Position numbers and translations under genes: made by a program. A DNA stretch of 34,034 bases, from NCBI GenBank assembly GCA_016926295.1, contig JAFGOX010000002.1:1-34034 (forward strand). Reading direction: 5' to 3'. Within the stretch, counting starts at the first letter, position 1. Each line of letters starts with the position of its first letter. Below are positions 21,937 to 34,034 of this stretch, piece by piece. The notes beneath the pieces are model-generated. The model had not been told where the DNA came from, did not search any database, and was given only the letters and a program-made list of their open reading frames with translations. The stretch comes from Candidatus Iainarchaeum sp. Its GTDB lineage: Archaea; Iainarchaeota; Iainarchaeia; JAFGOX01.

Positions 21937-24900
21937 TCACTTAAACCATGAATCAATTGTTTTCTGTTTTCCTTTTTGTAATAAGTCCTCTTCTTTATAA
22001 CCTAATGCATACAGTATCCTCATCGCTGCCGGAACCACCTGATTGTTGATATAGTAGTCAATATCATAATCCCCTTCTTTTACATAGGCGGCAACATCTG
22101 CTTTCTCAGAGATTGATTTTCCCCGTGATGTGATTATGTAATCTATCATGCTTCCGAGCCCGTATTTGTCTCCGCGCTCGTTTGCCTTGATTGCGGCTGA
22201 TGTATGCGGGCCAAGGACGCTGTAATTCTCCAAAGGCCTTGTTATTTTTGTGTGAATTGTCAATTCGCCGTTTGAAACTTCCTTTTTCTTCAGCTTTTCT
22301 ATAACTTCCTTAACATAGGAAATTGCTTTTTTCTCATCGCCGTCTTTCAGTATGTAAGTCAGAACTTTCATTTGCGTGTCCCTTGCAATCGCCGACCAGT
22401 CCCTCCTTACCAGTTCAAATCCTTTGATTTTGATGTGATTGTTCTTGTCAATCAGCGCATATTTTTTCTTTGCACCTTTTTCTTTGTCTCTTGTGGAGAT
22501 GAATATCCCGCGCTTGTGGCTATTTTCAAATTCAAGCTCCATTTTGTCAGGTAGCTTTTTGTTAACCTTTTCCAGGAATTCGTAAATCTTGTCTTCGCCC
22601 CACCCTTTTGGTATTTTCACATAAACGCTATCTGTGTCAGAATAAATGGGCGTAAAACCGAAATCCTCTGCATCCTTTATTGTCTTTTTTATATATTCTC
22701 TTGCCCATGCAGTTATTGATTCTGCGCAGGGTCGTGAATACCATCTTGAGCGGGGGTAGCCTAAATATCCGTAGAAAGAGTTATGTACGCCAGTAAAACC
22801 AGTTCCTGCAAAAAATCTTTCTGTTTCATTTACGGATAAATCATAGACATATTTTTCCTTATGATTCTTAATTATTTCAATTTTTTTCACTTTGTCAAGT
22901 CCGATATTTCCATTAAGTAGTTCACTAATTAGTCTGGTATAATCATTTTTTCCTTTTTTTAATTCGTATTCTTTTATTATTGTGCGTGCTTTATTGAGTG
23001 GAATGGTTTTGCGGTGATCGCTTTTTAATGTTTTAACTTTTTTCAATTCCGTAAGCAATGGCAAAATATATTCTTTCGGTATTGTGTTTACATAAGTGTA
23101 TTCGCGAGTACGATTTCTTTTCATGAAAGGAAGCCCATCCCTTACCTCTAGCCGGTACACCCCTGAATCTTTCTTTATACATAAATCATTATATCCTAGT
23201 AATAGTATTAGGAAAGAAAGGTCGTTTATTAGTTTTTTTGAAATGCTTGTCATTCTTGGCCATGGCGTGGTTTGATTTCCATCGCCAAGATAATAGCCAT
23301 GTAGGAATTCTATTTGGCATTCCTTTCTTGCATTGAAAACACATGGGGGAATTCGTTTTTCCCTTGCATTATTTCCACAACCTAACGCCTTAATTATTAA
23401 AAATATAGATTTTTGTTGGAGATAACATCCTTTTTTGTCTGTTCTTGGGGTTTTCCCAAAGCTTTCTTTTATACATTTAGCTATGTTTTTTCTTATTTTT
23501 ATATTTACATCGTCTTGGGCTATTTGAATTCTAAAACTGGTTCCGGTTGGATTTTTTCTTTTGTCTGAGTAACCTTCGGCGGTATAATACCCAAGAAATT
23601 TATAGAAGCTTTTTACTGCCTTAATTGCAGCGGGTATGCTGGCCCCTGCTCCACCCATTGTGCTGATTTGCCAGTTTTTAATTTCATCATATTGTAAATA
23701 AGGAATAATTTTCAGTAAATCCGTTAATTTAGCAAAATAAGCGAAGTTTCTATACCAAAATAATTCGGAAAAAACAGTTTCAACTTCTAGGCGATTAATT
23801 CCGGCTTTGGTAATAATGAAATATTGTGATTGGCTTGGCACTTTCTTTGGTTTTTTTAATGCCTTAATATATCCTGATTTTTCTAGCTGGTTTAAATGTT
23901 TGGCAATGTTGTGCCGGTCTTTCTTAAGGTTATTACTTATATTGATGATGCAATCAGGACCCGTGTTTTTGAGGTAGTTTAATATTTTTATTCGGCTTCT
24001 TGTTTCGGTTCTTTTTGTGAAATGTTTATTGCTTACCCTTATATAGAGCCCTTCGATTTCTTTTTTTGGTAAAGTTGAAAGGATTTCTAAGAAGTTTATG
24101 TATTTTTCATACTTTGGTTTAATTTTAGGAATTCCTTTTGGAATAACAACGGGCGTTCCTTCTTTTAGGTTTTTTGTTTTTATTGTTCTGAACCCTTTTT
24201 TATTGAATGTAAATATCCCGTGGTCTTCTGTTAGTGTAATATCCCTGCCTGATTTGAGCGTTACTTTGTATAATTTTTTTGGTGCGTTATGCCGTATTAC
24301 TGATTTTATTGGTAAAAATGCAGTTTCTTTTTCATCAAAGCTCAATGTTTCGTAATCCTCTACTTTTTGGATTTCTGTTGTCCCTACTTTTTTTGGGTTT
24401 TTTATATTTTCATCAACAAAGGCTCCAATCGTTTTTATTTCTATTTTATTATTTTTTTTAAGGATTATGGGTTCAGTTGCCATTAATGAGTTTGCAACTA
24501 TTTTCAAGCCCCATTGATAACCATACAATGATTGGTAATTCTTGTCAGTTTTTTTCATTCCCTTCATTTTCTCTTTTGTCTTTATTCTTTTTCTTAAAAC
24601 TTCTTCAACTAGTTGGGGGATAAATCCTTGCTTGTCCTTACAGAACTTAAATCCCTTTGGGGAGATGTCAAAGTCTTTGCAGTTTTCAACATTCAGAGTT
24701 TCTGGTGCAATGTTGTGCGCAATCATGATTGTTGGGTATAGCGATCTAAAATCGTATTCAGCCAGATTCTCGTGTATTCCGGGTTTTGGTTCCATTACGT
24801 ATGCGCCCTCGTAAGGGTCGAACATTCTTTTTCTCACATCTCTCTCTTTTGGCCTTCGCGGCGGGATTTCACCTTTGTTGAATGCCTCTTTTACAATGTA

Positions 24901-26070
24901 ATGCTCAACCAGCGTTCCTGTGCTGACTCTTGTTGTTGTATAAAGCAAGGTCCCTGTTAATCTGCTAAGCTCGTAACCCAGGGTTTCATATTCCCTTCCC
25001 AATTCGTAGCATGCGATTGAATCCTGAAGGCAGTACTTTGCAAGCTTTTCCGGATTTTTCTCCCATTCTTTCCAAATCTTGTGACCGACAAATTCTATTT
25101 TAGATTTTCCAAGAAGCGCCTCATAAACCCGTTCTAATTTGTATTCTGGCAGGCTGACTGCCCCGCTCCTTGATAGGAACTGTATAACCTGATAAACATC
25201 AACGTGAACCCTTCCGGTTATTTTTCCCTTTGAAGTCATTCCCCCAGTTCTCAAAAATAATTCCGAGCCGTCCTTTCCTAATGGCAATTTTACTTTCAAA
25301 TATTTTGCCCTTTTTTTAAGATAGGGGAAGTCGAACATGTCTCCGTTGTAGGTCATTATTATATCAACATCGTCTTTGTTGACCTGTTTTACGAATTCCT
25401 CAATCATTTCTTTCTCATCTTTAACTTTTACAATGAACCCCTTTGTCTTTAGTTTTTCGCTCCATGTGAATAATTTTTCTGTTCCTTTGCTGTTGACATA
25501 GGAAATCATTATTATCGGATTCTTCTCATTCTCTGCATTTGGCATTTCCCCCTTTGCGTATACTTCCAAATCAAACGCGCCGATAATCAAATTGTCAATC
25601 TCGTGCTTTTTCTCTTTGATTGATTTTATAACAAACTTGTCGTCGACTTCTGCTTCGACCCAGCCCATGGGTTTTAGCTGATTTTCAATAATATAGTACT
25701 GCTCTGTGGATATCTCAAATCCAGTGGTTTCTTCTACCTCGTCCCATTCCTTAATTAGGTCCCTTATGGCGTTTATGTGCCTCCCGTTTTCAGTCATTAT
25801 TTTCAGCACTTCGCGGTCTTTTCCATGGAACTTTCTCTTTTCAATGTCTATTTTAGGGGGGGCAAAAGGCTCATTTTTATAGGTGAAGTCCAATTTCAGG
25901 ATTTTTTCCTTCAGAGAACTAGCATTATGTGAAGTGATTACGTAAAATCGGGGTTTGAAGTTCGTTTCTTTCAAAATATAGCTTTCTTTGCCCTTTATAT
26001 ACAATTCCAAGGCTGATTTGCCCTTTTCTTCCTTTTCTTGGATATCCAATAATACGCCTTCTACTTTCAT
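21937..26070 (-). CDS. polB: DNA polymerase family B, interrupted by an intein
   Basis: Exo motifs (GAFDLEVYA, TYNGDMFDFPYL, YCLQDS), Pol motifs (YDFRSLYPTIM; KIVAN/SFYGYLGYPRSRWY; YSDTDSVY). Start MKVEGVLLDIQEK (26070) or the TTG/ATG-proximal start at 26100. Confidence 0.96.
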   Translation of the reverse strand: MKVEGVLLDIQEKEEKGKSALELYIKGKESYILKETNFKPRFYVITSHNASSLKEKILKLDFTYKNEPFAPPKIDIEKRKFHGKDREVLKIMTENGRHINAIRDLIKEWDEVEETTGFEISTEQYYIIENQLKPMGWVEAEVDDKFVIKSIKEKKHEIDNLIIGAFDLEVYAKGEMPNAENEKNPIIMISYVNSKGTEKLFTWSEKLKTKGFIVKVKDEKEMIEEFVKQVNKDDVDIIMTYNGDMFDFPYLKKRAKYLKVKLPLGKDGSELFLRTGGMTSKGKITGRVHVDVYQVIQFLSRSGAVSLPEYKLERVYEALLGKSKIEFVGHKIWKEWEKNPEKLAKYCLQDSIACYELGREYETLGYELSRLTGTLLYTTTRVSTGTLVEHYIVKEAFNKGEIPPRRPKERDVRKRMFDPYEGAYVMEPKPGIHENLAEYDFRSLYPTIMIAHNIAPETLNVENCKDFDISPKGFKFCKDKQGFIPQLVEEVLRKRIKTKEKMKGMKKTDKNYQSLYGYQWGLKIVANSLMATEPIILKKNNKIEIKTIGAFVDENIKNPKKVGTTEIQKVEDYETLSFDEKETAFLPIKSVIRHNAPKKLYKVTLKSGRDITLTEDHGIFTFNKKGFRTIKTKNLKEGTPVVIPKGIPKIKPKYEKYINFLEILSTLPKKEIEGLYIRVSNKHFTKRTETRSRIKILNYLKNTGPDCIINISNNLKKDRHNIAKHLNQLEKSGYIKALKKPKKVPSQSQYFIITKAGINRLEVETVFSELFWYRNFAYFAKLTDLLKIIPYLQYDEIKNWQISTMGGAGASIPAAIKAVKSFYKFLGYYTAEGYSDKRKNPTGTSFRIQIAQDDVNIKIRKNIAKCIKESFGKTPRTDKKGCYLQQKSIFLIIKALGCGNNAREKRIPPCVFNARKECQIEFLHGYYLGDGNQTTPWPRMTSISKKLINDLSFLILLLGYNDLCIKKDSGVYRLEVRDGLPFMKRNRTREYTYVNTIPKEYILPLLTELKKVKTLKSDHRKTIPLNKARTIIKEYELKKGKNDYTRLISELLNGNIGLDKVKKIEIIKNHKEKYVYDLSVNETERFFAGTGFTGVHNSFYGYLGYPRSRWYSRPCAESITAWAREYIKKTIKDAEDFGFTPIYSDTDSVYVKIPKGWGEDKIYEFLEKVNKKLPDKMELEFENSHKRGIFISTRDKEKGAKKKYALIDKNNHIKIKGFELVRRDWSAIARDTQMKVLTYILKDGDEKKAISYVKEVIEKLKKKEVSNGELTIHTKITRPLENYSVLGPHTSAAIKANERGDKYGLGSMIDYIITSRGKSISEKADVAAYVKEGDYDIDYYINNQVVPAAMRILYALGYKEEDLLQKGKQKTIDSWFK
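22780..24489 (-). mobile_element. Intein with LAGLIDADG-type homing endonuclease in PolB (570 codons, AN/SFYGY site)
   Basis: Starts S(LMATEPIIL) after KIVAN, block B LKSGRDITLTEDHGIFTF, LAGLIDADG motifs FLGYYTAEGY and FLHGYYLGDG, C-terminal FAGTGFTGVHN followed by +1 Ser (SFYGYLGYPRSRWY). Confidence 0.95.
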
Positions 26071-26132
26071 ATCTTTCCCTAGGTAGATATTGCCCAGCAT
26101 GTTTATATAATTATTGAGTTTCTTTATTTTGC

Positions 26133-27239
26133 ATGGCTGAATTTGAAGTAACCCCGTGGGATGTATCCGGGCATGTTGACTATGATAAGCTGGTCAAGGA
26201 GTTTGGCACAGATTATATTACAGATAAGCAGCTTAAGGAAATAGAGGCGATTACCGGAGATTTGCACATATACCTCAGGAGAAAATTATTTTACTCTCAA
26301 AGAGATTTAGATGCAGTTCTGAAAGCGCACAAATCCGGAAAGGGGTTTTTCCTTTACACTGGTCGCGGACCGTCCGGTGATATGCACATCGGTCATTTGA
26401 TGCCGTTTATTTTTACAAAGTGGCTGCAGGAAAAGTTCAAAGTCAATTTGTATATTCAGATTACTGATGACGAGAAATTTGCATTTAAGCAGAATCTTTC
26501 TCTGGAAGACACAAGAAAAATGGCAAGAGAAGACATTGCAAATATTTTGGCATTGGGCTTTAGTCCGAAAAATACATTCATAATGCAGGATTCGGTTTAC
26601 ACACAGACATATCCGAAAGCGCTTGAATGGTCAAAGTACATTAACTTCTCAACAACAAAGGCGGTTTTCGGTTTTGAGAATGCAACGAATATCGCAAGCA
26701 TTTTTTATCCTGCGGTTCAGTGTGTGCCGATTACGTTTGAAGAGAAGCAGTGTTTGATTCCTTCAGCAATTGACCAGGACCCTTATTGGAGAATTGCAAG
26801 GGATGTTTCCCATAAAATAGGAAAAGGTTATCCAAAGACTGCGGCAATACACTCGAAGTTCATTCCCCCCCTTTCCGGTCTTGAGGGAAAAATGAGTTCT
26901 TCAATTGAGGGCTCGACAATAAAACTAAATGACACCCCGAAAGAAGTCAAAAACAAAATTAACAAATATGCTCTTACTGGCGGTCAGAACACAGTTGAAG
27001 AACAGAGAAAGAAAGGTGGAAATCCGGAAGGTTGCGTTGTTTTTGAATATTTGAAGATGCTGATGGAAGAAGATGACAAGCTTTTAGAAGAAAGATACAA
27101 AAACTGCAAAGGCGGAAAAGTTCTTTGCGGAGAATGCAAGCAGTATCTTATTGAGAAATTGAATGCTTTCTTGTCTGAGCACCAGAAAGCAAGAGCAAAG
27201 ATAACTGACAAGGATATTAACAAGTTCCTTCTTAAGTAA
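26133..27239 (+). CDS. trpS: Tryptophan--tRNA ligase (archaeal/eukaryotic type)
   Basis: TGRGPSGDMHIGHLMPFIFTKWLQ (HIGH), QIDQDPYWRIARDVSHK-like, KMSSS. Confidence 0.96.
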   Translation: MAEFEVTPWDVSGHVDYDKLVKEFGTDYITDKQLKEIEAITGDLHIYLRRKLFYSQRDLDAVLKAHKSGKGFFLYTGRGPSGDMHIGHLMPFIFTKWLQEKFKVNLYIQITDDEKFAFKQNLSLEDTRKMAREDIANILALGFSPKNTFIMQDSVYTQTYPKALEWSKYINFSTTKAVFGFENATNIASIFYPAVQCVPITFEEKQCLIPSAIDQDPYWRIARDVSHKIGKGYPKTAAIHSKFIPPLSGLEGKMSSSIEGSTIKLNDTPKEVKNKINKYALTGGQNTVEEQRKKGGNPEGCVVFEYLKMLMEEDDKLLEERYKNCKGGKVLCGECKQYLIEKLNAFLSEHQKARAKITDKDINKFLLK

Positions 27240-27765
27240 GTTTCTTTACACAGACGTACCATGGAACAAACCAATCTATTTTCTTATCTTTTCTTAATTC
27301 TTTGATTTCTTTTGTGGTTTTCTTTGGAATATATTTTCCATCTATGCTAATGTCGAATCTTAAAAAATCTGGCAAATAATCCTGATTAAAAAATAAGTCC
27401 CTAAGGTCATTACATGAAACTGGAAATATAAGATATAATTTTTCTATTTTCTTATCCTTTGCCCACGCTTCTGCTTTTTTAATTAGTTTTTTTCCAAGGC
27501 CTTTTCGTCTATATTCGGGTAATATACCCATTCCTACTATACCATAATTCTTTCCATATAATTTTTCTTCTATTCCTATTTCTATGAATCCTATTATTTC
27601 TCCATTTCCATTAACTCCTAAGAAACATACTTCACTTTCTGGGCCCTTTATGTCGTTGTATATTTGATTATACCCTACTCTGCGATAACAAGATTCATCA
27701 AAACAGGCTTTTGCAAGCTTGTTGAATTGTTTATAATACTCTTTAGTATATTTAATTATTTTCAT
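27232..27765 (-). CDS. GNAT family N-acetyltransferase
   Basis: YGIVGMGILPEYRRKGLGKKLIKKAEAWAKD acetyl-CoA binding motif; overlaps the upstream gene by 14 nt. Confidence 0.85.
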   Translation of the reverse strand: MKIIKYTKEYYKQFNKLAKACFDESCYRRVGYNQIYNDIKGPESEVCFLGVNGNGEIIGFIEIGIEEKLYGKNYGIVGMGILPEYRRKGLGKKLIKKAEAWAKDKKIEKLYLIFPVSCNDLRDLFFNQDYLPDFLRFDISIDGKYIPKKTTKEIKELRKDKKIDWFVPWYVCVKKLT

Positions 27766-28090
27766 CTAATACCCTTACTTCTCCAACTTCAGCATCTACC
27801 TCTATAGTGGCCCCATCCTTAATTTTTTCCATCGCATCTTTTACATTTACTATACAGGGAATGCCAAACTCCCTTGACACAATTGCTGCATGAGAAAGAA
27901 TTCCGCCTTCTGAGGTTACTATTGCACTGGCTTTTAATATAATATGAAGCATTTCTGGATAGGTAGCTGGCGTAACTAATATCCACCCCTTTTCGAATAC
28001 AGTATTGAGGCCTGCCCCTTCATCTATTTTTTTTACTTTTCCTTTTGCGTAACCCTTTGATGCTTTTTGCCCTTTCAATATAATCATCAT
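27752..28090 (-). CDS. Stand-alone PEP-utilizing enzyme mobile (swiveling phosphohistidine) domain protein
   Basis: 112 aa: KGYAKGKVKKI...ILVTPATYPEMLHIILKASAIVTSEGGILSHAAIVSREFGIPCIVNV...DGATIEVDAEVGEVRVL, with the catalytic SHAA histidine. Confidence 0.9.
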   Translation of the reverse strand: MMIILKGQKASKGYAKGKVKKIDEGAGLNTVFEKGWILVTPATYPEMLHIILKASAIVTSEGGILSHAAIVSREFGIPCIVNVKDAMEKIKDGATIEVDAEVGEVRVLDENN

Positions 28091-28923
28091 AATCCCTCAC
28101 TTTTGATAAATTCCGCTACGTCTGCTACTCGTTTTAAACCGCTTTTTGCCATGACCCCCATTAATAACGGGTAAGTCTCTTTTTCATTTATCTGTACAAA
28201 TTCTTTTTGTGATTTTACAACCCAAGAATATAGTTTTACTAACTCTGGATTAATTTCTTCTTTTTCTTCATTTTGTTGTTTTACACTAAAATCACTTAGT
28301 AAAATTTTTAATAAAATGTCCTTTGGATTCTCTTCGATATCATAAATTTTAGTTAATTCGCATAGTGTTAACATTAATTCTTTTTCATAATTTTTATTTT
28401 TATTTATTAAATCATTAAAGTTTTCTATGTCACTCAATTTTAATTTTGGTTTTATTTTTGCAATTATTTCATACATTTGATATACTGCTGTTTTTTCCCT
28501 ACTTATTTCTGATAGTTTTTGCAGTACGTCTATAATATCCGTATTTTTCCCTGTTAGGTTTCTTATTTTTTGTTCTATGTAACTTTGAAACCACCCCGCA
28601 CCCAACATAGCTGTACATAATGAATACCAAAAACTAGGCCAAATGTGAAGTTTTGCATGAATTAATTTTATTTCTTTCTCAGTTTTTGCATTTTTAAATT
28701 CTTCCGTTAATTTTGGAATCATTTCTTTTATCATTCTTTTTTTTCCATCAACCGCCATAATTGGATTTTTATCTAGTTTATCGCGGAATTTAGTTAAATC
28801 TGCATGTATTGTTTTTGAGGCGCCTAACATGAGGTTACAATATTTAATTAGATCTGGATCGTATAGTATTAAATCATCAATTTTGGCAATATGGGCATCT
28901 ATCATCCTCTTCGACTCCCGCAT
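28087..28923 (-). CDS. Hypothetical all-helical protein
   Basis: 278 aa; ATGA overlap with the downstream phosphohistidine-domain gene; 5' end overlaps the radical SAM gene (by 47 nt if started at 28923, 29 nt at 28905). Confidence 0.75.
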   Translation of the reverse strand: MRESKRMIDAHIAKIDDLILYDPDLIKYCNLMLGASKTIHADLTKFRDKLDKNPIMAVDGKKRMIKEMIPKLTEEFKNAKTEKEIKLIHAKLHIWPSFWYSLCTAMLGAGWFQSYIEQKIRNLTGKNTDIIDVLQKLSEISREKTAVYQMYEIIAKIKPKLKLSDIENFNDLINKNKNYEKELMLTLCELTKIYDIEENPKDILLKILLSDFSVKQQNEEKEEINPELVKLYSWVVKSQKEFVQINEKETYPLLMGVMAKSGLKRVADVAEFIKSEGL

Positions 28924-29956
28924 TTATAGTATATCCTATGCACCCCGTGCATATTTTTGCATATTTACAGTTGTTAATACACTTTTTAGGTCTTACGTTA
29001 AATTCTTTTTGAATTTTTTCCCACCAATTCCCTTTTTTATTTATGTTTCCCATTTTAAATGTTGGAAAATCAAACATGAAACAACAAGGATATATATCTC
29101 CATTTGGTAATATTTCGGCCTTTGTTTTTCCTGCGCTACATCCTACAAATAATTTATCAAAATTTGAGGCCGGTAGTTTTGAATTATTATGTTTAAAATA
29201 AAAGGGGGCATTCACGGTAATTGGCACATTACCTTTTAGTTCATCCACCGTTTTAAAAAATTCGTCTAGGGTTATTATAATGTCTCGATTTCGTTTTAGA
29301 TTTCCACAAAGTGCAGCATATAACAATAGCCAAGTTTCTAAATTATGAAATTTTAATAATTCACACCTTAATTTGTATAAGTTATTTATATTTTTGCGGT
29401 TTATGATAGTTGATACTGAAAAGGGAAGCTTCTTGTCTAGAGCTTTTAGATTATTTAATACATTATCATAACTTGTTGAATGAGTTATTTTATTGTGGAT
29501 ATCTTTTGTTCCCTCTATGGAAACAGTTAACTTTACATCATATTTTTTAATCCAGTTAATGTGTTCTTGTAAATTAGCCCCGTTAGTAGTAAGATTGCAT
29601 ATTACCTCGTTTTCATAAGCAAATTGTGAAAATTCTTGACTTATTTTTGATGCAACCGGCAAAAGTGGTTCCCCGCCTAGAATAGTTATTGCAAAGATTT
29701 TCTTTTCTAGAATATAGTTTTTTATATTTTGAACTGTTTCTTTGCTCATTGCACCTTTTGTTTTATTTTGTATGTAGCAAAAATCACAATTTTGATCGCA
29801 CAGTAGAGACGGATAAATAATTAATTCTAAAGGTGCGCCAAGTAATTTCCTTGAATTAGTATTATTTGTGTTTATCTTTATATTTTTTCCATCTGCAAGG
29901 AACCATTCGCCTTTTATGCAAGTAACATTACCTATGTTTTCTTTGCGTATTATCAT
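28877..29956 (-). CDS. Radical SAM protein with SPASM-like C-terminal Cys cluster domain
   Basis: LIIYPSLLCDQNCDFCYIQ (CX3CX2C), ITILGGEPLLP, NLTTNGANL; C-terminal GCSAGKTKAEILPNGDIYPCC...CINNCKYAKICTGCIGY...CPYC. Confidence 0.92.
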   Translation of the reverse strand: MIIRKENIGNVTCIKGEWFLADGKNIKINTNNTNSRKLLGAPLELIIYPSLLCDQNCDFCYIQNKTKGAMSKETVQNIKNYILEKKIFAITILGGEPLLPVASKISQEFSQFAYENEVICNLTTNGANLQEHINWIKKYDVKLTVSIEGTKDIHNKITHSTSYDNVLNNLKALDKKLPFSVSTIINRKNINNLYKLRCELLKFHNLETWLLLYAALCGNLKRNRDIIITLDEFFKTVDELKGNVPITVNAPFYFKHNNSKLPASNFDKLFVGCSAGKTKAEILPNGDIYPCCFMFDFPTFKMGNINKKGNWWEKIQKEFNVRPKKCINNCKYAKICTGCIGYTINAGVEEDDRCPYCQN

Positions 29957-29965
29957 AGTAAAGAA

Positions 29966-30121
29966 TTAAGGCACATATTGGCCATTTCTTTTTTTTGCTG
30001 TGGCATAGTCTTCAAGTGGTATTCCTACTGGGATTAGTTTTAAATTATTGGCCATTCTTGTATTTGCTTGTTTATTAGTGTTTAAATCAATATTTTTGTT
30101 TAAGCCCATTTTTAGATTCAT
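29966..30121 (-). CDS. Small peptide gene, candidate precursor/substrate of the adjacent radical SAM enzyme
   Basis: Manual translation MNLKMGLNKNIDLNTNKQANTRMANNLKLIPVGIPLEDYATAKKRNGQYVP* (51 aa). SD-like GGGGGT 6 nt before ATG, TATA-like box upstream, stop 9 nt before the radical SAM ATG. Below the length cut-off of the supplied ORF track. Confidence 0.7.
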   Translation of the reverse strand: MNLKMGLNKNIDLNTNKQANTRMANNLKLIPVGIPLEDYATAKKRNGQYVP

Positions 30122-30127
30122 AAATTT

Positions 30128-30133
30128 ACCCCC
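30128..30133 (-). promoter_or_regulatory. Shine-Dalgarno-like sequence GGGGGT for the small peptide gene
   Basis: CCTTGGGGGTAAATTTATG on the reverse strand; 6 nt spacer to ATG at 30121. Confidence 0.6.
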
Positions 30134-30160
30134 AAGGTTTATTTAATATTTATTAACAAT

Positions 30161-30169
30161 CTTTATAAG
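30161..30169 (-). promoter_or_regulatory. TATA-box-like element for the 30121-27232 operon
   Basis: CTTATAAAG on the reverse strand, about 40 nt upstream of the ATG, consistent with an archaeal promoter and a short 5' UTR. Confidence 0.5.
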
Positions 30170-30673: not shown

Positions 30674-31243
30674 TTAGTCTTCTTTTCTTGCATGCATTGC
30701 TATTACTAATGCAACTACCAACACTATTGGTAACCATAAAGGCATTTCAGCAAATCCGCCTTCTACAGGTTCGTAAACCGTGACAATGCATTCTGCCTTA
30801 TCTGTTGCCATGGTCGCGTCGGTTAATGTCATTTTGATTGTATAGTTTCCTTTTTCAGTGTAAGTGTGCTGCAATGCAAGTATTGTTTTGTTGCCAGTAT
30901 TGTTTACAGTTGTCCCGTCTCCGAAATCCCAGTCCATTGTGTAGTTGTCTGGTGTGAAGACTGCAGAATAAGCGCCATGGAATGTGAAAGGCTCATCGAT
31001 CATTATCATTTCATTTGGGCAGTTTATTTTTGCAACAGGCTTTCCAGAAATTCCCGGTTGTGGCTGATTTGGTACTCCTGGTGGCAAGCCGCCCGTTCCA
31101 TTGCTGTCTGCAGTTATTGTCACTTTTGCCAAATTGTTTGAAGAAGTAATTGTAATATTTGCCTGATTGTTTGCTTCATCTGCAATTATCAGTGGCACTA
31201 AAATTAAAAGTGTCAGGATACAAATTGCAATTATTTTTTTCAT
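30674..31243 (-). CDS. Membrane-anchored surface protein with PKD-like domain
   Basis: Signal peptide MKKIIAICILTLLILVPLIIA; DNYTMDWDFGDGTTVNNTGN...LQHTYTEKGNYTIKMTLTD; C-terminal TM LWLPIVLVVALVIAMHARKED. Confidence 0.85.
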   Translation of the reverse strand: MKKIIAICILTLLILVPLIIADEANNQANITITSSNNLAKVTITADSNGTGGLPPGVPNQPQPGISGKPVAKINCPNEMIMIDEPFTFHGAYSAVFTPDNYTMDWDFGDGTTVNNTGNKTILALQHTYTEKGNYTIKMTLTDATMATDKAECIVTVYEPVEGGFAEMPLWLPIVLVVALVIAMHARKED

Positions 31244-31254
31244 TTTGTATCCCC

Positions 31255-34034
31255 CTAATTAACGGTTTCGTCAATTAAATTGTCTTTGTCCACAATCACA
31301 TATATGTCAAAGCTTCCTGCTGCAGGGATTGTCCATTGCACTGAAACAGTCTGGCTTGAACCTGCAATTCCTAAAGCAGCCAATGCGCCCAGGGTTTTTG
31401 TTCCGATTAAAGTTCCTCCGCTTGCAGGATTTCCCTGGTAGAAGTGCACTGTCGGGGATGTTCCCAATGAAACTGAGCCCAATCCAAGGTTATTCACAGT
31501 TGCACTTATTGTAACGCTTTGCCCAACGCTGTAAGGCCCGCTTGGTGTTACAGATATGTCACTAGCCGTGATTGCCAAATCAGGTTTTCCAGCAGTTCCA
31601 TTACTGACTGTTACGCTTACTGGTGTTGCTGAACCTATGCTTGCTGCGGCATCTGTTGCCCTTGCGTTGATTGTAACTGCACCGTTTGCAGAAGTTGTTG
31701 TGTTCCAACTATAACTCCAATTATTTGTTCCTACTGCTGCTGCCCAGCTTCCGTCTCCAATCTTAACTTCAACTGAGGATATTGCCGAGCTTGTAATTAG
31801 GTTTGGTGTTGCAGTTCCGGTTATTGCAATTGTTCCGCTTACTATTGCTGCCGCTAAAGGAGTTGTTATTGCAACTGTTGGCGGATTCACTGCAGGATTG
31901 ATTGTTATTTGGGTTCCGTGTGTTGCTATGTTGTTCACTTCATTCCCTTCTACAACATCATCATCAAGGTCAGCTTCACATCGCAGGTTGTAGTTTCCTA
32001 TGGCTAATCCTGTTGTGTCAATTGTGAAGTTGTTTGCAGTTCCGTTTGTTGTACTGCCTGCAGATAGTGCACCCGTTGGGTTTTCATCACTTGGCGTCCC
32101 GCCACCTAAATATACACTTGTTGTTGAGGTTGCTGCATCTCCCGGGCCATTGTTTGTTGTAGTACAGTTTACATCAAAAGAATTTCCGGATATAACTGTT
32201 GTGCTTGAAACTCCAGTGATGCTTGTAACTAAATCAGGTAATGATATTCCCTCGCCCAATCCAATTACCTCACCCGGGCTTCCGCCGGTTGTTCCAACAA
32301 ACAATATGTCGTCTGTTGCCGCGATTGATGAAATCCAGTCATAGGTGCTGCAGCTTCCGTTTGCGCCCAGTTCATTGTATATTTTTGTCCAGCTATTTCC
32401 TGCAATGTTGTATTTCCATAGTTCACCATCGTGTGTTTCGCCCAGTGCTAACATTGCCTTACTGTAACAAGTTGCAACTAAAATATCATTTCCCCCATTT
32501 ACAAGGGTTGGAGAACTAACTTTTGTTTGACTTTCACCCATTGCGGCCGGAGTTGATGTCAATCCGCTTGCGGCTGTGGCAACATTTGTTTTGTACATTT
32601 TTCCGTCATCTGTTGCTATGAATATGTTTGTTCCGCTTACTGCCGGTGTTGCGCTTATTCCTTGTACTGTTGCAAGTGAACCAATTGTGTATCCATTGTG
32701 CGCATCAACTACATAAACGTTTCCAGAACTTGTGTCTGCAACTACAATGACTTTGCTTGTTGTGACGTTGCCAAGATTTGGATGCACGTAACTAATGGCA
32801 ATATTCATAAGAACCGGTGATGCAACGAAGTTTGTTCCTCCGCCTATTCCACTTGGTGTGTTTCTCCATAGAATGTCGCCGGTCCATGTATCTATTGCAG
32901 TAACATATCCTGCAGAGTCAGCATAGAACGCAGTATCCACATTTGTCCACTTTTGCGCGGGGTCGGGAATTCCGTCTCCGTCAATGTCAAACATTTCTTC
33001 TTCCATAGTGGCTGTTCCATTGCCGCCTATACTTCCTGCAGGACCCCCGCCGATTACTGCATCGGCGTCAAAGTTTAATCCGCCAGCAACATCTCCGCTT
33101 CCCGGCATTGCCTTCCATATCCACGGCATGAATGATACTGCGGGCGTGGCTTTATTTCCTGCATTGCCGCCAAGCTGTTTCAATGTTCTTGCCCACCATA
33201 TGGCGCCATTGCTTACGTCAATTGCAGTTGCTCTTCCTGTGTCACTTCCTGTGAAAACAAGATTATGGGCCGTTCCGTCACCTAATATTATTGTGAATGG
33301 TGTTGATGATGCTACTAGAGGCATTGCACCCAATATTAATTGCCGCCATATTACTGAACCGTTACTGGCATCAATACCATATACTGAACCGTCGCTTGAA
33401 CCGACAACCACAACATCTTTTATGGTAGTTCCCAATGCTCCGGCCATTCCACTTTCTACAAATCCGTAACTCTGGTTTCCAGAAACTAATGTTCCAGATG
33501 TGCTTGTGTCTTTGACATCAATTCCCGGCAGGTAAGCGGGGGTTGACCTTATTGCCCCACCTGTAGGTGTAGACCATACAACCGGAGAGCCGGCTAAAGT
33601 ATCTGCATTTAATGCATAAAGATTTCCATCGTCTGCTCCGATGAAAATAAGAGTTTTTGTGCTTCCATCCGAAACAAAGACATTGCTTGCTATTACTGGC
33701 GAGGACAATATAGGTCCTGATATTGCAGTAAAAGCCCACCTTTCATTCACATCGCTTACATTAGTGTAACTTGTGTTAGACCTTCCGCTATTTGTTTCAT
33801 TTCCATGGAAACTTGACCATTCAGGTGTTCCAGGAGAATAACCTGCTGCTCCGCCAGTTCCTCCGCCAGTTAAGGTTATTGTTACCGCTCCAGATACTAT
33901 TGGTGGCACTACGCCGCCTGCGCCTCCACTGGTGCCGCTACCTGAAAATCCGCTGGTTCCCGTTCCGCCATCCGGCACGGTTGTACCACCTTCGGGCAGG
34001 TCTCCGCTACCCAGAATTTCAAAGTAAATTGTAC
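31255..34034 (-). CDS. Large surface protein with PQQ/beta-propeller-like repeats, two CARDB-like domains and an Ig-like domain (5' end outside the window)
   Basis: WSSFHGNETNSGRSN...IFIGADDGNLYALNADTLAGSPVVWS..., VVGSSDGSVYGIDASNGSVIWR, TAIDTWTGDILWRNTP (PQQ-like); DLVTSITGVSSTTVISGNSFDVNCTTTNNGPGDA...NYNLRCEADLDDDVVEGNEVNN (CARDB). Frame stays open to 34034 (TIYFEILGSGDLPEGGTTVPDGG...), so the track start at 33978 is not the real start. Confidence 0.85.
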   Translation of the reverse strand, partial: TIYFEILGSGDLPEGGTTVPDGGTGTSGFSGSGTSGGAGGVVPPIVSGAVTITLTGGGTGGAAGYSPGTPEWSSFHGNETNSGRSNTSYTNVSDVNERWAFTAISGPILSSPVIASNVFVSDGSTKTLIFIGADDGNLYALNADTLAGSPVVWSTPTGGAIRSTPAYLPGIDVKDTSTSGTLVSGNQSYGFVESGMAGALGTTIKDVVVVGSSDGSVYGIDASNGSVIWRQLILGAMPLVASSTPFTIILGDGTAHNLVFTGSDTGRATAIDVSNGAIWWARTLKQLGGNAGNKATPAVSFMPWIWKAMPGSGDVAGGLNFDADAVIGGGPAGSIGGNGTATMEEEMFDIDGDGIPDPAQKWTNVDTAFYADSAGYVTAIDTWTGDILWRNTPSGIGGGTNFVASPVLMNIAISYVHPNLGNVTTSKVIVVADTSSGNVYVVDAHNGYTIGSLATVQGISATPAVSGTNIFIATDDGKMYKTNVATAASGLTSTPAAMGESQTKVSSPTLVNGGNDILVATCYSKAMLALGETHDGELWKYNIAGNSWTKIYNELGANGSCSTYDWISSIAATDDILFVGTTGGSPGEVIGLGEGISLPDLVTSITGVSSTTVISGNSFDVNCTTTNNGPGDAATSTTSVYLGGGTPSDENPTGALSAGSTTNGTANNFTIDTTGLAIGNYNLRCEADLDDDVVEGNEVNNIATHGTQITINPAVNPPTVAITTPLAAAIVSGTIAITGTATPNLITSSAISSVEVKIGDGSWAAAVGTNNWSYSWNTTTSANGAVTINARATDAAASIGSATPVSVTVSNGTAGKPDLAITASDISVTPSGPYSVGQSVTISATVNNLGLGSVSLGTSPTVHFYQGNPASGGTLIGTKTLGALAALGIAGSSQTVSVQWTIPAAGSFDIYVIVDKDNLIDETVN

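Follow-up and report, generated by a model that had tools for sequence, protein, structure and literature searches.

A 51-residue peptide gene, unannotated and lying directly upstream of a radical SAM/SPASM (rSAM) gene in Candidatus Iainarchaeum sp., is probably the precursor of a RiPP, with the adjacent enzyme as its maturase. The evidence comes mainly from two peptides, one in this genome and one upstream of an orthologous rSAM gene in another archaeal phylum. On the best reading of the region, the pair sits in an unusual archaeal cluster that combines an rSAM with pieces of a PEP dikinase. The window referred to here is the whole stretch of DNA that was analysed, the 34,034 nucleotides of contig JAFGOX010000002.1. 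Within it the peptide gene heads a minus-strand operon of five genes, the last four of which overlap each other:

30160-30169, minus strand: TATA-like box CTTATAAAGA, about 44 nt before the peptide ATG (from sequence only)
30128-30133, minus strand: GGGGGT, a ribosome-binding-like site 6 nt before the peptide ATG (from sequence)
29966-30121, minus strand: 51-aa peptide gene, candidate RiPP precursor (ORF, codon usage, similarity to a Micrarchaeota 41-aa peptide)
28877-29956, minus strand: radical SAM/SPASM protein, 359 aa, presumed maturase (PF04055, 9e-14; PF13186, 8.7e-7)
28087-28923, minus strand: 278-aa protein, fold not recognised, with a 47-nt overlap with the rSAM gene
27752-28090, minus strand: stand-alone PEP-utilising 'mobile' (phosphohistidine) domain, 112 aa (PF00391, 2.7e-25)
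27232-27765, minus strand: GNAT-family N-acetyltransferase, 177 aa, final gene of the overlapping run (PF00583, 3e-16)

The ORF, MNLKMGLNKNIDLNTNKQANTRMANNLKLIPVGIPLEDYATAKKRNGQYVP, reads from an ATG at 30121 to a TAA at 29966, and the plus strand carries several stops across the same interval. A sequence-only reading had already proposed an unannotated peptide gene here, without stating that it lies on the minus strand. Its description of the GGGGGT and TATA-like box upstream, of an end 9 nt before the rSAM start, and of a peptide free of Cys and Trp with an Asn-rich N-terminal half agrees with the sequence: the rSAM ATG is at 29956, in the same frame as the peptide, and Asn makes up 8 of the first 26 residues. 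Codon preference gives the ORF a log-likelihood of 0.277 bits per codon, where 52-codon pieces of real genes average 0.27; of 25 out-of-frame (shadow) ATG ORFs of at least 40 codons, not one scores as high. When the codon model is trained only on the genes of the AT-rich operon, the ORF scores 0.16 against 0.169, and again none of the 25 shadow ORFs matches it. The ribosome-binding-like site is rare, given that GGGGG occurs at -16 to -4 of only 4 of the 1148 ATGs in the window. Transcription starting about 26 nt after CTTATAAAGA would leave a short 5' leader that includes the GGGGGT. That the ORF is a real gene linked to the rSAM is well supported.

The shared frame and the single stop between the two genes would also fit an ORF that is the broken-off N-terminus of the rSAM. 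This idea was rejected because the rSAM and its ortholog start at matching residues (MKVTRLENIG vs MIIRKENIG). When peptide and rSAM were modelled with AlphaFold2 as one chain through the in-frame TAA, with two orthologs aligned, the mean pLDDT was 41.6, and the model was discarded. A coding-like small ORF just upstream was found for 5 of 183 large genes in 22 loci, and three of the five are rSAM genes linked to PEP-dikinase pieces. Such an ORF thus precedes three of four rSAM genes with a dikinase link and 2 of the 179 other genes (Fisher p = 4e-5, a value that is indicative only, because the loci were picked after the fact, while following this finding).

The rSAM has a single full-length ortholog, in the Micrarchaeota contig JAJZJM010000004 (LSA5.bin40; locus L040, also L046), with 34% identity and an E value of 2.9e-45; other copies are truncated in JAGDYB010000001 and decayed in JAKARM010000005. 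The Micrarchaeota cluster consists of a 41-aa ORF, the rSAM, a mobile domain (65% identity to that of the window over 62 aa), a 699-aa protein that carries a second rSAM, and PPDK_N as a stand-alone ATP-grasp protein. Its small ORF is the following:

L040, 5860-5985: coding-like 41-aa ORF MGLHIKKEAKEEMDTDIILETATVDPKFYAFLKKGGHCCMG, 67 nt upstream of the orthologous rSAM

The sequence-only reading had named the lack of any homologous ORF upstream of orthologous rSAM genes as a ground for refuting it. In the sole ortholog with an intact upstream region, MGLHIKKEAKEEMDTDIILETATVDPKFYAFLKKGGHCCMG is such an ORF, so this check did not refute the proposal. When MNLKMGLNKNIDLNTNKQANTRMANNLKLIPVGIPLEDYATAKKRNGQYVP and MGLHIKKEAKEEMDTDIILETATVDPKFYAFLKKGGHCCMG are compared, the top register is gap-free and brings the two stop codons flush (score 20, p = 0.0012 with all registers allowed); the C-terminus-flush register alone has z = 4.75. 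The identities are confined to the leader, with 9 of 34 positions there (score +30) and 0 of 7 in the tail (score -10). Y-A-x-x-K-K closes the conserved stretch common to both peptides, after which the last seven residues are RNGQYVP in the window and GGHCCMG in the Micrarchaeota. In the window peptide, residues 1-44 are therefore leader-like, ending Y39-A-T-A-K43-K44, and R45-P51 form a variable tail, the candidate core. The leader/core layout, whose boundary the sequence-only reading had guessed at, thereby gains support and a sharper limit after K44. This pattern of conserved leader and variable core is supported by one pairwise comparison of two sequences, since the peptide family has only two known members. 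The occurrence of a related gene pair in a second phylum of archaea suggests that an enzyme converts the peptide into a modified product.

Further members were sought at several depths. Among 87 genomes of the window's class there is no close relative; here the window peptide gave weak matches that were taken as chance, the best of them (E 0.018) lying within a frame of 277 codons. Matches of the Micrarchaeota peptide in 301 genomes fall in other proteins and, after inspection of the frames, were likewise set aside. The rSAM alone as query gave no match in the genome contigs and viral contigs, and the rSAM alignment found three Micrarchaeota loci in the genome contigs and none in the viral contigs. 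Profile searches of three further archaeal phyla gave no further ortholog, the best match being G567, a PqqD-fused relative.

The enzyme carries the motifs expected of an rSAM RiPP maturase and stands beside a small encoded candidate precursor. Its CX3CX2C motif consists of C53, C57 and C60, and the C-terminal SPASM-type cysteines are at 273, 291, 326, 330, 336, 339 and 354, with a slightly unusual C-x3-C-x5-C-x2-C spacing. The closest PDB matches are 5v1q (SuiB) and 5wgg (CteB), and the top NCBIfam models are the PapB, DynA and KxxxW maturases. The best of these, PapB (NF047865), covers nearly the whole rSAM (E 1.3e-22) with 80.5 bits against a cut-off of 340; the KxxxW model (TIGR04080) reaches 61 bits of the 500 required and the mycofactocin model 54 of 265. 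Because these scores are far below the cut-offs, the enzyme belongs outside every named NCBIfam maturase family. An RRE domain usually grips the leader in rSAM RiPPs, where it is frequent and not universal. At the N-terminus of the window rSAM only the first strands of a PqqD/RRE-like hairpin align, with no PqqD match in Pfam.

Two of the last three genes of the operon have recognisable families. The mobile domain keeps the catalytic His motif GGILSHAAIV, and the GNAT closes the run. The 278-aa protein has no family match in Pfam or NCBIfam and no relatives among the 87 genomes of the class; it occupies the place of a helical domain in the Micrarchaeota clusters, homology to which was not established (hhalign probability 2%). 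Neither a peptidase nor an exporter was found in the five-gene operon with Pfam and NCBIfam; both are frequent in RiPP clusters and do not define them. The G+C content is 0.29-0.30 in three of the four enzyme genes and 0.37 in the mobile domain, while the majority of the remaining genes in the window are near 0.40; acquisition of the operon is therefore possible. This rSAM occurs once in the genome, an assembly of 592 kb in 52 contigs that is 79% complete.

PEP mobile domains, stand-alone or fused, are common in the window's class as well as in Micrarchaeota, and in most cases no rSAM accompanies them. Often they belong to proteins of 480-520 aa that form tandem runs beside a PPDK_N protein. 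In the window's class, L103, L108 and L109 hold tandem arrays of such proteins, each about 480-520 aa long with the PEP mobile domain at its C-terminus, next to PPDK_N, with up to 14 matches per genome. The window operon has no ATP-grasp partner. The only PPDK_N match in the genome lies in a separate PEP-synthase-like gene with an intein-like insert (L049, G000:C34; a sequence reading), so no detached partner was found in this 79% complete assembly.

Beyond these genes and motifs, we infer a modification and a site for it, roles for the last three genes, cleavage and export. A single transcript would run from the TATA promoter, ribosomes would enter at the GGGGGT of the peptide, and the rSAM would be translated by coupling across the 9-nt gap, as the anatomy of the region suggests; coupling is likely because the rSAM start has no ribosome-site-like sequence of its own. 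The conserved N-terminal part, ending in Y-A-x-x-K-K, would guide the rSAM, which would then modify the peptide by radical chemistry, most probably through a carbon-carbon or carbon-heteroatom bond in which Tyr takes part. Two sites may be considered. The link could form within the seven-residue tail, between R45 and Y49 of R45-N-G-Q-Y49-V-P, or the conserved Tyr39 could be joined to Lys43, at a spacing of i, i+4. A variable end after a conserved part is the rule for RiPP cores, and for this reason we lean to the tail as the core, short as it is at seven residues. The phosphohistidine carrier, as part of a split PEP dikinase, and the GNAT may phosphorylate or acylate the product or supply a building step; a phosphoryl transfer by the mobile domain, with the peptide as acceptor or donor, is a guess. 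In its boldest form the proposal is that of a new RiPP class of ultra-small archaea in which the rSAM crosslinks Tyr and Lys of Y-A-x-x-K-K or modifies the seven-residue core, and a split PEP dikinase phosphorylates or activates the peptide, which we regard as rather unlikely.

Other readings have to be weighed against the precursor-maturase pair. The peptide could be the starting material for a small redox cofactor or a signal, rather than for a secreted peptide, in the manner of PqqA in the making of PQQ and MftA in that of mycofactocin. Such a fate would suit the very short tail with a Tyr near the terminus (QYVP), an operon without an exporter, and the top score of the G567 rSAM against the mycofactocin maturase model. 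However, the window operon holds no other PQQ or mycofactocin genes, and the GGHCCMG tail lacks Tyr, which makes a fixed cofactor structure unlikely unless it arises from the conserved Y-A-x-x-K-K. We regard this reading as doubtful, and a cofactor made in this way would still be a RiPP, so that it overlaps the explanation preferred here.

It is unlikely that the ORF is a regulatory one, which loads ribosomes for coupled translation of the rSAM while the peptide itself is idle. The start of the rSAM 9 nt past the ORF stop, in the same frame and with no ribosome-site-like sequence, is what such a device would look like, but the peptide sequence itself is conserved in the Micrarchaeota, where a spacing of 67 nt makes coupling less likely. 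Distinctly unlikely, too, is an unmodified small protein partner, a detached leader/recognition subunit or an inhibitor, with the rSAM acting on another substrate. With only the first PqqD/RRE-like strands retained, the rSAM could need a separate helper, and most of the peptide is conserved; yet neither Pfam nor NCBIfam shows any likeness of the peptide to PqqD, and a conserved part followed by a variable tail is typical of substrates. Finally, the ORF could have arisen by chance in AT-rich DNA, and in favour of this one could cite the short length of 51 aa and the 58 ORFs of at least 40 aa that overlap the last 10 kb of the window. Such an origin is very improbable and already largely refuted by a codon score equal to that of real genes and above 25 of 25 shadow ORFs, by the rare ribosome site and by the homologous peptide at the same position in another phylum.

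The preferred precursor-maturase pair resembles several known systems in part. As in the streptide/KxxxW systems (SuiB, StrB; TIGR04080), a short precursor is encoded directly upstream of an rSAM/SPASM maturase, and SuiB is the best PDB match. The crosslink partners of streptide are spaced i, i+4, and the Tyr39-Lys43 pair resembles its Lys-x3-Trp. Unlike these systems, the window peptide has no Trp and thus no K-x3-W core, and the rSAM is archaeal, lacks a full RRE, has other partner genes and falls short of TIGR04080. With PQQ (PqqA/PqqE) and the RRR peptides, systems with Arg/Glu-Tyr carbon-carbon links, it shares a Cys-free substrate in which Tyr has Arg or Glu nearby (R45...Y49, E37...Y39) and an rSAM/SPASM enzyme; Arg-Tyr links are known in RRR peptides (PMC8326336). 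Nevertheless, neither the ExxxY of PqqA nor the C-terminal Val-Tyr of MftA is present, the tail ending in QYVP, PqqB, C, D and F are absent from the operon, and the enzyme is below the NCBIfam cut-offs for these families.

The likeness to the ranthipeptide maturase PapB, the best and near full-length NCBIfam match, stops at the substrate. Thioethers are impossible in the window peptide because it has no Cys, so the Cys-to-acceptor thioether of sactipeptides and ranthipeptides is not found here, and the enzyme scores under the PapB cut-off. The exclusion of thioethers made by the sequence-only reading therefore stands for the 51-aa peptide, but it does not extend to the enzyme family, since the related Micrarchaeota tail is GGHCCMG. 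Also close is the JAJZJM010000004 cluster, an intact copy with its orthologous rSAM, homologous upstream peptide and mobile-domain gene; it differs in that tail, in its additional 699-aa and PPDK_N proteins and in having no GNAT. Graspetides of the microviridin type combine ATP-grasp enzymes with a GNAT and sometimes a SPASM protein (PMC8939145), and here too nucleotide-dependent enzymes, a SPASM rSAM and a peptide share a cluster. In contrast, the ATP-grasp is of the pyruvate/PEP dikinase type and occurs in the Micrarchaeota relatives, not in the window operon, and the window peptide has no Thr/Asp ester-lactam core motif. In searches of open-access papers, no description was found of RiPPs combined with dikinases or PEP-utilising proteins, nor any account of rSAM peptide clusters from DPANN-type archaea or Micrarchaeota, which is not proof of absence.

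The tiny genomes of DPANN-type archaea are usually read as reduced to essentials. If two archaeal phyla share a conserved precursor-maturase pair that is accompanied by dikinase pieces, such cells would seem to run a peptide chemistry of their own, perhaps aimed at hosts or competitors. It also offers a concrete testable pair, a 51-aa substrate and a 359-aa enzyme.

A maximum-likelihood tree built from 30 archaeal rSAMs places the window and L040 enzymes as sisters (99/95) within a five-member clade (95/88) that also holds the rSAMs of G092, G567 and G253. The placement of G253 next to the window enzyme is weak (81/51). G253, a Micrarchaeota genome, has an evident RiPP cluster (L052:2062-7754) with three rSAMs, an arginase-family protein, a 118-aa protein of no known function, a GNAT and a 48-aa peptide, MASKTKVVAKPEMKLDKPELKSIRRIYFDDTWIKAFGRGYSGPCSWCV, whose leader bears the motif KPELK and which ends in YSGPCSWCV; the arginase-family protein is possibly a peptide arginase making ornithine. 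In G092, the rSAM is preceded by a 41-aa ORF that has a ribosome site of its own and is followed by a fused dikinase. The PqqD-fused rSAM of G567 adjoins a gene for an ABC-2-like membrane protein, and the 37-aa ORF between the two (L130:2577-2690; MKEYSRREIKERVKKKFEKPEIKKILSQHCIGLLIEE) looks like another RiPP precursor. G312, also of the Micrarchaeota, has two tandem paralogous Cys-rich peptides (...LLRADEHNFGCGAGC), followed by an rSAM and a 664-aa dikinase-like protein (L051:1208-4607); its rSAM falls elsewhere in the tree, outside the five-member clade.

Two other regions of the window deserve mention. Positions 30674-33978, adjoining the operon, encode surface-type proteins with PKD, CARDB, Big and PQQ-propeller domains. 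At 21937-26100, a family B DNA polymerase-like gene appears, from a reading of its sequence, to be interrupted by an intein.
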